Shown: positions 12,843 to 33,000 of the stretch, one piece after another | How positions within the stretch are numbered: the stretch's first letter is position 1 | Layout of the letters: each line of letters begins with the position of its first letter | Source of the DNA: Aneurinibacillus soli | Lineage (GTDB): Bacteria > Bacillota > Bacilli > Aneurinibacillales > Aneurinibacillaceae | Length of the DNA: 64,000 nt | Direction of reading: 5' to 3' | Assembly (NCBI RefSeq): GCF_002355375.1 | Contig: NZ_AP017312.1 | Location: forward strand, 1,567,001 to 1,631,000 | Notes under the pieces: model-generated | Told to the model about the DNA's origin: nothing | Database searches by the model: none | Seen by the model: the letters and a program-made list of their open reading frames with translations, nothing else | Program-made: the position numbers and the translations under genes

Positions 12843-13328
12843 ATGAACCACGAACAAAGGGCCAAAGAAGCACTTATGGGTGCGATCACTGTGCAAGAGT
12901 TGGCAGATTATTTACAGACTGAAGGGTATAAGGCGGTACAGGCTGTAATTTTTTATTTGGAAAAGGAGCTTAGAGCTGCTGTAGATGAAGCAGGACTTGC
13001 GGCCTGGGAGGAGGCATTCGAGCGGGCATACGCCGCTGTGCCCACTCCGGGTCAGTACAGTCCATCCTGGCATGATATTTGGGACGAGCTTAGGGCTGTA
13101 CAGCAGGGGAAAACAAAAGTATTGGCACGAGTGGCACCAGAGGAGCGCACAGGTGTGTGGCAGGTAACCTTTGATAATCCGTATTCTACAGAGGGAGTGG
13201 TCTGTCATCCTGGACTTTCCCTTGCAGATGCTGCGTATTTGTATGCTGGATATCGGTATAACTTGAAGAAAAATGAACACGTATGCTTGCAGAAAGTACA
13301 GACATACGCAGATGAGGCAGGAGAATAG
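12843..13328 (+). CDS. Hypothetical protein, 161 residues
   Basis: Soluble, acidic and mostly helical at the N-terminus (residues 1-75), then a predicted beta-rich C-terminal half (GVWQVTFDNPYSTEG...). No family recognised. The ATG at 12843 sits 4 bases after GGGGGA; a TTG at 12840 is closer still. It converges on the DUF1885 gene, and the two share a long bidirectional hairpin. Confidence 0.65.
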   Translation: MNHEQRAKEALMGAITVQELADYLQTEGYKAVQAVIFYLEKELRAAVDEAGLAAWEEAFERAYAAVPTPGQYSPSWHDIWDELRAVQQGKTKVLARVAPEERTGVWQVTFDNPYSTEGVVCHPGLSLADAAYLYAGYRYNLKKNEHVCLQKVQTYADEAGE

Positions 13329-13330
13329 CA

Positions 13331-13379
13331 CAACTAAAACAGCTGTATGGGTCAATGGCCCATACAGCTGTTTTAGTTG
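13331..13379. terminator. Bidirectional terminator, 21-bp perfect stem
   Basis: Bases 13331-13351 are perfectly complementary to 13359-13379 with a 7-base loop. The stem contains AAAA/TTTT near its base but no long T run follows on either side. It sits between two convergent genes and ends 3 bases before the DUF1885 stop. Confidence 0.85.
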
Positions 13380-13381
13380 GA

Positions 13382-13861
13382 TTATTTACGCGGATTGAAA
13401 TACATAACACGATTGTTAAACAGATGCAACTCGGCTTTGTATTCGCTTGCAAGGTAGCGACATAGCTCATTAGCCTTACCTTTATCTCCATGTGTAGATT
13501 GTTCGGTAAGTGTGATCTGTATGTATGACTGCTCTTTTGGAACGGTACGTGTGCGCGTTTGGCCTTCATGATCTGGATCTGCTTCTGTGACGGTCTGCTC
13601 AATTGTACGTGTTCCTACTCCGATCAGGATGTAGCGGTACAGAGTCTCATCGATTCCTTTAAGATAAAACCATTGCCCCTGCCCTTCCGGTTTTTCCTGA
13701 ATGGTATATGGGAAGGCAAACTGGCCATACGCCCAGTCCAGCTGCGTTCCTGTTTTTTTGAGGATGGTTGTATACTGGTCTAGCTTCTGCTTCACATCAT
13801 CTACAGAGGCCTGTGCGACCGTAGAACCTTCCACAAATGTGATATAAGCGCTTCTGCTCAC
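13382..13861 (-). CDS. DUF1885 family protein
   Basis: 159 residues beginning SRSAYITFVEGSTVAQASVDDVK, which fits the DUF1885 family of Bacillales (small alpha/beta proteins of unknown role). The start is GTG with GGGAG about 10 bases upstream on the minus strand. No signal peptide or membrane segment. It stands alone, divergent from the MarR-type regulator. Confidence 0.6.
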   Translation of the reverse strand: MSRSAYITFVEGSTVAQASVDDVKQKLDQYTTILKKTGTQLDWAYGQFAFPYTIQEKPEGQGQWFYLKGIDETLYRYILIGVGTRTIEQTVTEADPDHEGQTRTRTVPKEQSYIQITLTEQSTHGDKGKANELCRYLASEYKAELHLFNNRVMYFNPRK

Positions 13862-15252: not shown

Positions 15253-15474
15253 ATAACATATTGAGCGCGAATAAGCGAGGAGGAACCGGCTGTGGGAACA
15301 ATTATTTGCCAGCATTGTGACACAATCATTGAGCATTATGAAACGGAGAAAGTAGAAGTATTGTATGCAAATACATGCGACTGCTCTTCCTGTGGTGAAC
15401 AGAAATAGTATGACACAATAGAAAAGGAGGCTGTCTCAAAAGCCAGAACATGGCGAACGGGACGGCCCTTTTTT
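15253..15474 (+). ncRNA. sr1: Dual-function regulatory RNA SR1
   Basis: Transcript predicted from about 15253 (7 bases after the -10 box) to the T run at 15469-15474, about 220 nt, close to the 205 nt of B. subtilis SR1. It encodes the SR1P peptide and lies near speA, the same neighbourhood as in B. subtilis (between pdhD and speA). In B. subtilis the RNA base-pairs with ahrC mRNA and blocks its translation; whether pairing is kept with the ahrC at 3.4 kb was not tested. The terminator hairpin (15429-15437 with 15459-15467) belongs to the left end of the adjoining repeat element. Confidence 0.78.
15292..15408 (+). CDS. sr1P: GapA-binding peptide SR1P
   Basis: 38 residues beginning MGTIICQHCDTIIEHYETEK with a second cysteine cluster (CDCSSCGEQK) at the end. 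MGTIxCQxC, the EK-V-LY segment and paired C-x2-C motifs are the SR1P pattern. The B. subtilis peptide binds glyceraldehyde-3-phosphate dehydrogenase GapA and promotes its interaction with RNase J1. GTG start at 15292 with GCGAGGAGG about 8 bases upstream. Confidence 0.88.
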   Translation: MGTIICQHCDTIIEHYETEKVEVLYANTCDCSSCGEQK

Positions 15475-16151
15475 GTAGAATCGACAACGCTTGGTGGTGA
15501 GGGAGTGGGAGAAGGGAGGAACCGTTCGCTTGAGTACGCTTGCAGGGAAGCGGCGGCTGTCCGCTCCGTGAGCCCGGCGAACTGGCCCGCAAAGAAAGCC
15601 AATGATGTTGATTCACCGAAGGATTGCGGGCAAAGGCTCGTTCACCGTTCTCGCTCCGCTGAGTAGACGCGTACAGGCGCTTTCTTATTCCTCCCTTCTC
15701 CCACTCCCTGCACAACGTTTCGGTTTACAAAAAACACGCGACGCCAGAACGGATTTGCTCGGGTCGCCACTGGTTTTTTGGAAGTCTGATTCCTTTGTTT
15801 TTTACCTACATAGCAAAGCTCAGCCTCTTGATTATACTTGAAGAGCTTCGTCCAAACTGTGTCAGGAGCGGGATCGGGCGGGGAAACGGAACGCCTGTAC
15901 ACGACTCCCCAGCGGAAGGGGGCTGGCGAATGGGCTTTTGCCCACAATGCTTCTGTGCAAATACATCATGGTCCTCTTTTGTGGGCGAGTTCGTCTGGCA
16001 CCTGGAGCGGACAGCCCTCACTCCTTAGCGAGCGTACCGAAGTGACGAGGCACCGCCCGATCCCGCTCCTCCACCACACTTTGGAGAAAACCTACACTAA
16101 GAAAAAAGAGGCCGTCTCAGTCGCCGTGTTACAGCTTTTGAGACAGCCTCC
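15426..16151. repeat. Palindromic repeat element, copy 1 (full length)
   Basis: A 726-bp non-coding element between convergent SR1 and speA, bounded by near-identical inverted ends GGAGGCTGTCTCAAAAGC (15426-15443) and its complement (16134-16151); similarity of the ends runs inward about 45 bp. It holds two hairpin modules in inverted orientation. Module 1: bases 15501-15521 pair perfectly with 15688-15708 (21 bp), inner stem 15585-15592 with 15624-15631. Module 2: 15864-15881 with 16053-16070 (18 bp), inner stem 15940-15947 with 15979-15986. Module 2 is a diverged reverse complement of module 1 (for example CTGTCCGCTCC at 15557 and its complement at 16004). No transposase. The short ORFs inside are not credible genes. 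Confidence 0.88.
16102..16150 (-). terminator. speA terminator formed by the right end of the repeat
   Basis: On the minus strand, GAGGCTGTCTCA (16150-16139) pairs with TGAGACGGCCTC (16119-16108) with one G-U pair, followed by T6 (16107-16102). It begins 10 bases past the speA stop codon. Confidence 0.85.
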
Positions 16152-16159
16152 CCATCGAA

Positions 16160-17644
16160 TTAGCGAATCGCCGGGTTGCGCTTGATGACTTTGATCATCT
16201 CAATCGACTCGTCTTCTGGTCCTTGTACCGGCAGTCCAGCTTCTAAGTTCTCGATGATGTAATCAATATTATCTTGTGTAAGCATTTCACCCGGCAGAAC
16301 AATCGGAATGCCAGGTGGATAAACCATAATAAATTCTGCCATAATGTGTCCGGCTGCTTCGCGCAGCGGCACAAGTTCTGTCTCTGCATAAAAAGCTTCC
16401 CGTGGAGAAAGGGCAAGATCCGGGATTTTTGGCAGATGAACGGTTAGCGGTTTAATGGATTCCTTACCCAGTTGAATGCGAGCAAGTTCACGCAGCGCCT
16501 GTACGAGTGTCGTCACGGTTAGGATGGAATCTCCCGGTGTCACAATACACAAGATGTTGTATAGATCACTCAGTTCGACTTCGATGTTATATTTCTCACG
16601 CAGCCATACTTCTACTTGATGTCCGGTTAAACCAATGCCACGCACCTGGATAATCAGTTTGGATGGGTCCATGTCATATGTGGCAGCACTTCCGAGGATC
16701 TCTTCACCCACACAGTACAAACCTGGGATGCTATTGATCTCAGAGCGGGTATGATTCGCGAGCTCAAGTACGTGGTCCATCATCTCTTTGCCGTGTAGAA
16801 CGAGCTGTTTGCGTGCAGTATCCAGTGAAGCAAGCAGGATATATGATGTAGATGTTGTCGTCAGCATGCTAATTACAGATTTGACCCGGTTCGCCGACAC
16901 AAGCCCTTCCCGTACGTTCAGCACGGAGCTTTGTGTCATGGAACCGCCAAGCTTATGCACGCTTGTTGCGGCCATATCAGCGCCTGCCTGCATAGCTGAC
17001 ATCGGCAGATCATCATGGAAGTGAATATGAACACCATGCGCTTCATCTACCAGAACAGGGATGCCATGTTCATGGACGACATCCACGATCTCCTTGAGAT
17101 TGGCCGATACTCCGAAGTACGTTGGATTAATAACAAGTACCGCTTTAGCAGTTGGATGCTGCTTAAGTGCGTTGCGGACGGAGTCGGTTGTGATGCCATG
17201 TGCTAGCCCCAGATTCGGGTCCATGACGGGATGGACGAATACGGGGATCGCGCCTGCAAAAATAACGGCAGACAGGATCGATTTATGCACGTTGCGGGGC
17301 ACGATAATTTTCTCACCTGGCCCGACAACTGACATAATCATCGTCATAATGGCTCCGCTTGTTCCCTGAATAGAGAAAAACGTATAGTCAGCGCCAAACG
17401 CCTCCGCTGCGAGGTCCTGTGCTTCTTTGATTATTTTTTTCGGATGGTGTAGATCGTCGAGCGGCGCGATGTTAATCAGGTCAATCGACAGCGCGTTCTG
17501 CCCGATGAATTCGCGGAATTCCGGATACATACCTGAGCCTTTTTTATGCCCCGGAATATGGAATTGAATCGGATTGCGCCGTGCATGCTCTACAAGCCCT
17601 GTAAACAGGGGAGTTTTTGTCTGATCCACTGCTTCATTCCCCAT
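16160..17644 (-). CDS. speA: Arginine decarboxylase SpeA (Orn/Lys/Arg decarboxylase family)
   Basis: PLP enzyme of 494 residues converting arginine to agmatine, the first step of polyamine synthesis in Bacillus. It is close to B. subtilis SpeA along its whole length: QFHIPGHKKGSGM near residue 27, DEAHGVHIHFHD near 200, and PLP-binding Lys231 in ATSVHKLGGSMTQS. The ribosome-binding site is weak (AGAAGA). It is monocistronic and convergent with SR1. The S-adenosylmethionine decarboxylase needed for spermidine is also in this window at 22.7 kb. Confidence 0.95.
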   Translation of the reverse strand: MGNEAVDQTKTPLFTGLVEHARRNPIQFHIPGHKKGSGMYPEFREFIGQNALSIDLINIAPLDDLHHPKKIIKEAQDLAAEAFGADYTFFSIQGTSGAIMTMIMSVVGPGEKIIVPRNVHKSILSAVIFAGAIPVFVHPVMDPNLGLAHGITTDSVRNALKQHPTAKAVLVINPTYFGVSANLKEIVDVVHEHGIPVLVDEAHGVHIHFHDDLPMSAMQAGADMAATSVHKLGGSMTQSSVLNVREGLVSANRVKSVISMLTTTSTSYILLASLDTARKQLVLHGKEMMDHVLELANHTRSEINSIPGLYCVGEEILGSAATYDMDPSKLIIQVRGIGLTGHQVEVWLREKYNIEVELSDLYNILCIVTPGDSILTVTTLVQALRELARIQLGKESIKPLTVHLPKIPDLALSPREAFYAETELVPLREAAGHIMAEFIMVYPPGIPIVLPGEMLTQDNIDYIIENLEAGLPVQGPEDESIEMIKVIKRNPAIR

Positions 17645-32433: not shown

Positions 32434-33000
32434 GCAAACGGACAGCTTGTTTTTGTGATATTGACAACGTTTGGTGGGGAGGGAGTGGGAGAAGGGATAA
32501 ACCGTTCGCTTCGGTACGCTTGCAGGGAAGTATGAACTGTCCGCTCCGGGAGCCCGGCGAACTCGCCCGCAAAAGAGGACCCACGATGTTGATTCACCGA
32601 AGTGTTGCGGGCAAAGGCCCGTTCGCCGTTCTCCCTTTGCTGAGTAGGCGCGTACAGGCGCTCTCTTGCTTATCCCTTCTCCCACTCCCCGCACAACGTT
32701 TTGGTTTATCAAAACCCACTCGACACCAGAACAGATGTGCTCGATCGTGACTGGCTTTTTGGAAGCCTGCTTCCTTTTATTTTTATCTGCGTAGCAAAGC
32801 TCAGCTTCTTGACATTACTTGATGGTGTTTAACCAAAGCGTGCTAGGAGCGGGAGCGTACAGTCCCAACTTCTCAGCAAGCGTACCAAAGTGACGAGGCC
32901 CCGCCCGATCCCGCTCCTCCACCACACGTTGGAGAAAACCACGCCAAGAAAAACGAGGCTGTCTCAGTCGCTATGTTCTAGCTTTTGAGACAGCCTCGTT
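32404..33000. repeat. Palindromic repeat element, copy 2 (second module truncated)
   Basis: About 597 bp, clearly homologous to the element at 15.4 kb and in the same orientation between convergent genes. Module 1 is intact: 32481-32500 pairs perfectly with 32670-32689 (20 bp), inner stem 32565-32572 with 32605-32612. Module 2 keeps only the outer stem (AGGAGCGGG at 32845 with CCCGCTCCT at 32910) and lacks most of the interior. The right end is GCTTTTGAGACAGCCTCG (32981-32998). The left end is degraded and runs into the methyltransferase gene, but GCTGTC (32406-32411) and GACAGC (32441-32446) plus TTGTTTTT still form a terminator-like hairpin. Confidence 0.85.
32947..33000 (-). terminator. 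Terminator of the 33-kb regulator gene formed by the right end of repeat copy 2
   Basis: On the minus strand, AACGAGGCTGTCTCA (33000-32986) pairs perfectly over 15 bp with TGAGACAGCCTCGTT (32966-32952), then TTTCTTGG. It starts 10 bases past the stop codon at 33011. Confidence 0.88.

Follow-up and report, generated by a model that had tools for sequence, protein, structure and literature searches.

Group IIC introns insert next to intrinsic terminators, and the repeat described here likewise sits by such terminators; no Rfam intron model (group II intron core or domain V) matched it, and no reverse transcriptase was seen in the copies examined. REP sequences are the targets of IS621 and related insertion sequences of the IS110 family (PMC1525189, PMC11208160). 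Our repeat resembles REP/BIME with their IS110-family insertions in being an intergenic palindromic repeat used as a site-specific IS target, but its module of ca. 220 nt with long-range pairing is very different from a REP hairpin of 20-40 nt and, unlike in the REP/RAYT system, the distribution of Y1 transposase genes does not follow the repeat. With the MITEs derived from the ISL3 family it shares the non-coding nature and the high copy number, together with AT-rich duplications of 8-9 bp and ISL3-like ends that are found in its single-module relatives. However, MITEs are not defined by a covarying internal fold kept across families, and the unit in the window (the whole stretch of 64,000 nucleotides that was analysed) has neither ISL3 ends nor a target duplication. 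MRSC-65-2, which comes from comparative RNA discovery (PMC11109978), is also multi-copy, supported by covariation, of unknown function and possibly relevant as DNA; set against the structured motifs from such searches, the element has no Rfam 15 family match, although no homology comparison with MRSC-65-2 was made. Bcr1 and the stem-loop repeats of Bacillus (Okstad 2004, cited in PMC2267715) are interspersed folded repeats of Bacilli as well, but the module described here is far larger (the sequences were not compared).

We interpret the repeat as a terminator-associated, non-autonomous, high-copy mobile element, the core of which is a module of ca. 220 nt with a selected secondary structure, and give this reading a probability of roughly 70%. 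An earlier note on this DNA had offered a selected fold and a non-autonomous mobile element as alternatives; our analysis supports both at once, and the structural features that the note described are all borne out by the sequence. It also goes beyond that note: the single module probably came before the double unit, the end hairpins are predicted terminators that point inwards, gene terminators are the places occupied, and the module is a landing site for an IS110-family insertion sequence. The system brings an IS110-family IS with a single target together with terminators and a non-autonomous element.

A double unit at gene ends

Positions 15426-16151 of the window hold one copy (copy 1) of a repeat family in a complete genome of 4,116,770 bases (G000). 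A BLAST search of this copy against its own genome recovered dozens of copies, with full-length paralogues 81-86% identical to it, and the double unit is typically ca. 720 bp long. Its order is terminator, module A, spacer, inverted module B and terminator. The inverted ends, which had been put at about 45 bp, are 49 nt long and 82% complementary (15426-15474 and 16103-16151). They form the end hairpins T1 (15426-15475, plus strand, -22.6 kcal/mol, z -3.8) and T2 (16102-16151, minus strand, -29.1 kcal/mol, z -6.5), each a GC-rich hairpin followed by a T run (a T6 tail in both) that meets the criterion for an intrinsic terminator and points into the element, although this is a prediction without termination data. 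We also considered T1 and T2 as a target-site duplication and rejected this for the window genome, as the hairpin loops are inverted and not direct. A separate terminator-like hairpin, with 31-nt arms 1 nt apart and 87% complementary, is found at 13324-13386.

Module A (15496-15716) corresponds to module B (15862-16076, plus strand) when taken on the minus strand, with fold energies of -114.2 and -100.8 kcal/mol, respectively, far under those of dinucleotide shuffles (z -8.1 and -4.2). The outer stem of module A (15500-15521 with 15688-15709, minus strand) is perfect over 22 bp, one more than first counted, and the second module is indeed a diverged reverse complement of the first (71% over 154 nt). 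The inner stem pairs GCCCGCAA (15585-15592, minus strand) with TTGCGGGC (15624-15631) in module A and GCCCACAA (15940-15947, plus strand) with TTGTGGGC (15979-15986) in module B, so that the paired change pointed out in the earlier note is a compensated one. The spacer (15717-15861), common to the double units, contains AAAGCTCAGCCTCTTGATTA, which resembles the ISL3-type ends of the single-module relatives. No sigma-70-like promoter was found inside the window copy, and an origin as a decayed coding region was rejected because none of the four ORFs tested had a Pfam match. The second copy in the window (at about 32440-32997) has an intact module A (32501-32666), has lost half of module B by deletion and carries a T2 hairpin at its right end; the apical loop said to be common to both first modules, GATGTTGATTCACCGAAG, is found without mismatch at 15604 and 32585 (0.05 occurrences expected). 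At the orthologous site the sister species (G006) has a single terminator hairpin only.

Copy 1 lies between two genes whose 3' ends face it, a small gene of 39 codons including the stop (15292-15408, plus strand), which we take to be SR1P-like and whose neighbourhood with the decarboxylase is conserved in several congeners, and a gene for an Orn/Lys/Arg decarboxylase (16160-17644, minus strand; PF01276, E 1.4e-107). A different repeat (GGGGCAGTAATCCCCCTGC...) occupies the site of the window element in the decarboxylase 3' region of another genome (L216 in G005), and is also found in G004 (L215). Convergent genes flank 54 of the 101 units for which both neighbours could be called; in G006 this arrangement is found in 192 of 1179 gene pairs, which makes a three-fold enrichment (the gene calls for these counts rest on ORF length only). 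Of the 154 unit ends facing the 3' end of a gene, 97 carry a T hairpin, versus 15 of the 55 other ends (p 7e-6). In other families the modules likewise tend to come after a terminator, and their position and neighbours differ between genera. In another family, though in two cases only, the local terminator hairpin is repeated directly and perfectly on either side of a single module, over 25 bp in L288 (1425-1449 and 1721-1745) and 27 bp in L289 (1424-1450 and 1712-1738), which gives the impression that the hairpin served as the target and was duplicated.

Copy number and the conserved fold

The repeat is non-coding and has a high copy number. A 38-base pattern present in both modules gave 109 matches, and its reversed control none. 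With a covariance model (R1) built from 54 modules, which scores 167.2 bits in module A (15521-15685) and 162 bits in module B (15886-16050) of copy 1, we found at least 150 matches in G000 and 93 in G006, a few in three other congeners and none in two more. Across 301 genomes sampled from the class there were matches in 39, belonging to at least seven families of Bacilli; the best E-values outside the window's family reach 2e-21 and the alignments retain the unpaired motifs, while matches with E around 1e-5 are weak and should be taken with more caution, the calibration being short. No Rfam 15 covariance model scored above its gathering threshold on the element. Carriage by plasmids or phages was considered and rejected, as no match to the repeat was found on either. 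We found no published description of the element, within an incomplete coverage of the literature. A covariation-supported module of this spread and number, without an Rfam match, is one reason why the repeat deserves attention, and the covariance model and the many natural variants are at hand for testing the fold as RNA or single-stranded DNA.

The fold of the module is real and, like the repeat family itself and its mobility, well supported; the covariation speaks for selection on it. The joint alignment of the 54 modules, all from within the genus, shows two-sided changes at 19 of 32 pairs, in 151 cells compared to ca. 49 in shuffles and no more than 30 with slid structures. One pair in the GCCCGCAA helix is A-U in 31 of these modules and G-C in 22. 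The 18 matches aligned across families gave 26 covarying pairs of 32 and 132 cells (ca. 39 shuffled, 24 at most in slid controls), although this alignment was fitted to the model and is hence biased towards it; in it, long-range pairs between the interrupted helices (helices 1-3) covary too. Nine compensated double changes separate the consensus of A from that of B, and their double differences number 10 where 3.1 are expected (0 of 20,000 permutations). Finding only two copies and no covariation would have refuted the earlier proposal, and neither holds.

Selection does not appear to be confined to the time before the copies settled. In 11 orthologous pairs of G000 and G006 the divergence was 9.2% in paired columns versus 18-22% in unpaired ones, with 30 double changes from one Watson-Crick pair to another, which indicates that the constraint also acted after those insertions. 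Certain unpaired motifs are kept across families, namely AGCGGA on the 5' side and AGCGG-CAG and CTTCC on the 3' side. On the outward strand G-T pairs outnumber A-C pairs; we do not take this as proof of strand-specific folding, because the unpaired columns show an equal or larger C-to-T asymmetry.

Mobility, ancestry and competing readings

The sequences flanking the G000 copies were mapped to 1.3 Mb of the G006 genome. About two dozen copy sites are common to both genomes, and at ca. 20 others G006 shows either a terminator hairpin of unrelated sequence, one T hairpin alone, the scar of a deletion or next to nothing; such empty sites bear out the mobility suspected before. Where G006 has an unrelated terminator, the old hairpin is missing from the window genome, so insertion either involved a loss of target sequence or was followed by it. 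At the site of copy 1, G006 has GGACCGAATGAGTGTATAGCTCATTCGGTCC and five more congeners have other sequences, mostly ordinary terminators, and copy 1 thus arrived within the window lineage. The palindrome also gets lost, judging by the deletion scars, which lie between short direct repeats; many copies are lost, truncated or deleted in the sister species. Around the window copy no target duplication was found, and with identities of 86% at most among copies within the genome no recent jump is seen.

The single-module relatives bear on the ancestry. Those of the sister species G005 end in GGGTCTACATCAAACTCTGTGCTTGACTG and GGCTCAATATCAAAGAATGTGCTTGACCG, inverted ends of the ISL3 type, which also bound relatives in a second sister species (G003) and in a genome of another genus, g3 (G008, L279, a locus assignment inferred from score); the 49-nt inverted ends of the window copy differ from them in sequence. 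Two relatives have AT-rich target duplications of 8-9 bp, ATATTTAT at L039 (G003) and AAATATATA at L191 (G005). The ends of an ISL3 insertion sequence in G006 (PF01610, PF14690, with the transposase in two frames) match those of the single-module relatives. This ISL3-family IS is located at 2565934-2567426 of G006 (L167), and its end type also bounds a miniature copy of 164 bp at 2698483-2698646 of G000. On the basis of these ends and duplications, the ancestral form was probably a structured MITE. In module trees the A-type modules form one group and the B-type modules another, with one single module intruding into each; in L280 (G007, again assigned by score) the two inverted modules are sisters, so that modules were probably doubled head to head on more than one occasion.

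What moves the two-module unit has not been identified, and its movement, like the role of the fold, is inferred. The transposase with matching ends that the earlier note had proposed to look for did not turn up, as none with T-hairpin ends was found. A RAYT/Y1 transposase was rejected as the mover for lack of correlation with the repeat, with two matches in G000, one in G006 and 12 (partly fragmentary) in G001, which is repeat-free. We envisage a single-module ancestor that an ISL3-type transposase moved as a MITE by acting on its inverted ends; in the window's genus, two diverged modules would then have been joined head to head, acquired inward-facing terminators at both ends and spread as a unit. 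Insertion at gene terminators, mostly between convergent genes, would do little harm because the unit supplies its own terminators. Most likely the fold would serve the element as a single strand (RNA or single-stranded DNA, we cannot decide) bound by a factor not found here, an idea suggested by the conservation of the unpaired motifs across families. The module could even be the nucleic-acid part of an undescribed mobile system, its folded single strand being bound by a protein that acts in trans and directs it to terminator hairpins. The hairpin copies flanking L288 and L289 would fit such a system, and with HEARO, too, the repeats were described before the part played by their protein partner became clear. 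This argument is by analogy and we advance it only tentatively, with a modest chance of being right.

The compensatory changes between orthologous copies at fixed sites, as well as the motifs shared across families, could also be expected if each module were a host non-coding RNA gene or a 3'-end regulatory RNA, selected locus by locus, its mobility being incidental. We consider this unlikely, since the window copy lacks a sigma-70-like promoter, terminators at both ends would stop read-through, the sister species has dispensed with many copies and the setting changes from genus to genus. The preference for convergent genes and the terminators at both ends would fit, instead, a BIME-like element of chromosome architecture or termination, a large terminator or supercoil absorber. 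However, a hairpin of 30-40 bp suffices at the same site in other species, termination does not need a complex fold with conserved internal loops, and relatives carry transposon ends and target duplications, all of which makes this distinctly improbable. Even less credible is that stems are kept in step by quasi-palindrome template switching alone, a process that gives paired changes without selection, so that the covariation would reflect mutation and not function. The long, near-perfect GC-rich stems are the substrate of that process, but the persistence of bulges and unpaired motifs across families and the covariation between the interrupted helices speak against it. A mobile element with a selected fold remains our preferred reading.

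Insertion of an IS110-family element in A-type modules

The A-type module is in turn a landing site for an IS110-family insertion sequence (PF01548, PF02371). Its seven identical copies in G000 (one at 553707-555317, L275, and six further sites) are all in A-type modules, at the same point and in the same orientation. The insertion point, CAAAGAAA, is unoccupied in copy 1, where it lies at 15590-15597 on the plus strand. The non-coding region of the IS holds an 8-nt CAAAGAAA identical to the target; that it acts as the guide is only suggested by this identity. The A-type modules provide a natural series of targets for studies of IS110 guides. Another kind of interruption was seen in a double unit at 1955600-1958110 of G000 (L084), which is split at its centre by ca. 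2.4 kb with genes for a TetR-type regulator and an MFS transporter, a cargo absent from the orthologous unit in G006 (L099).
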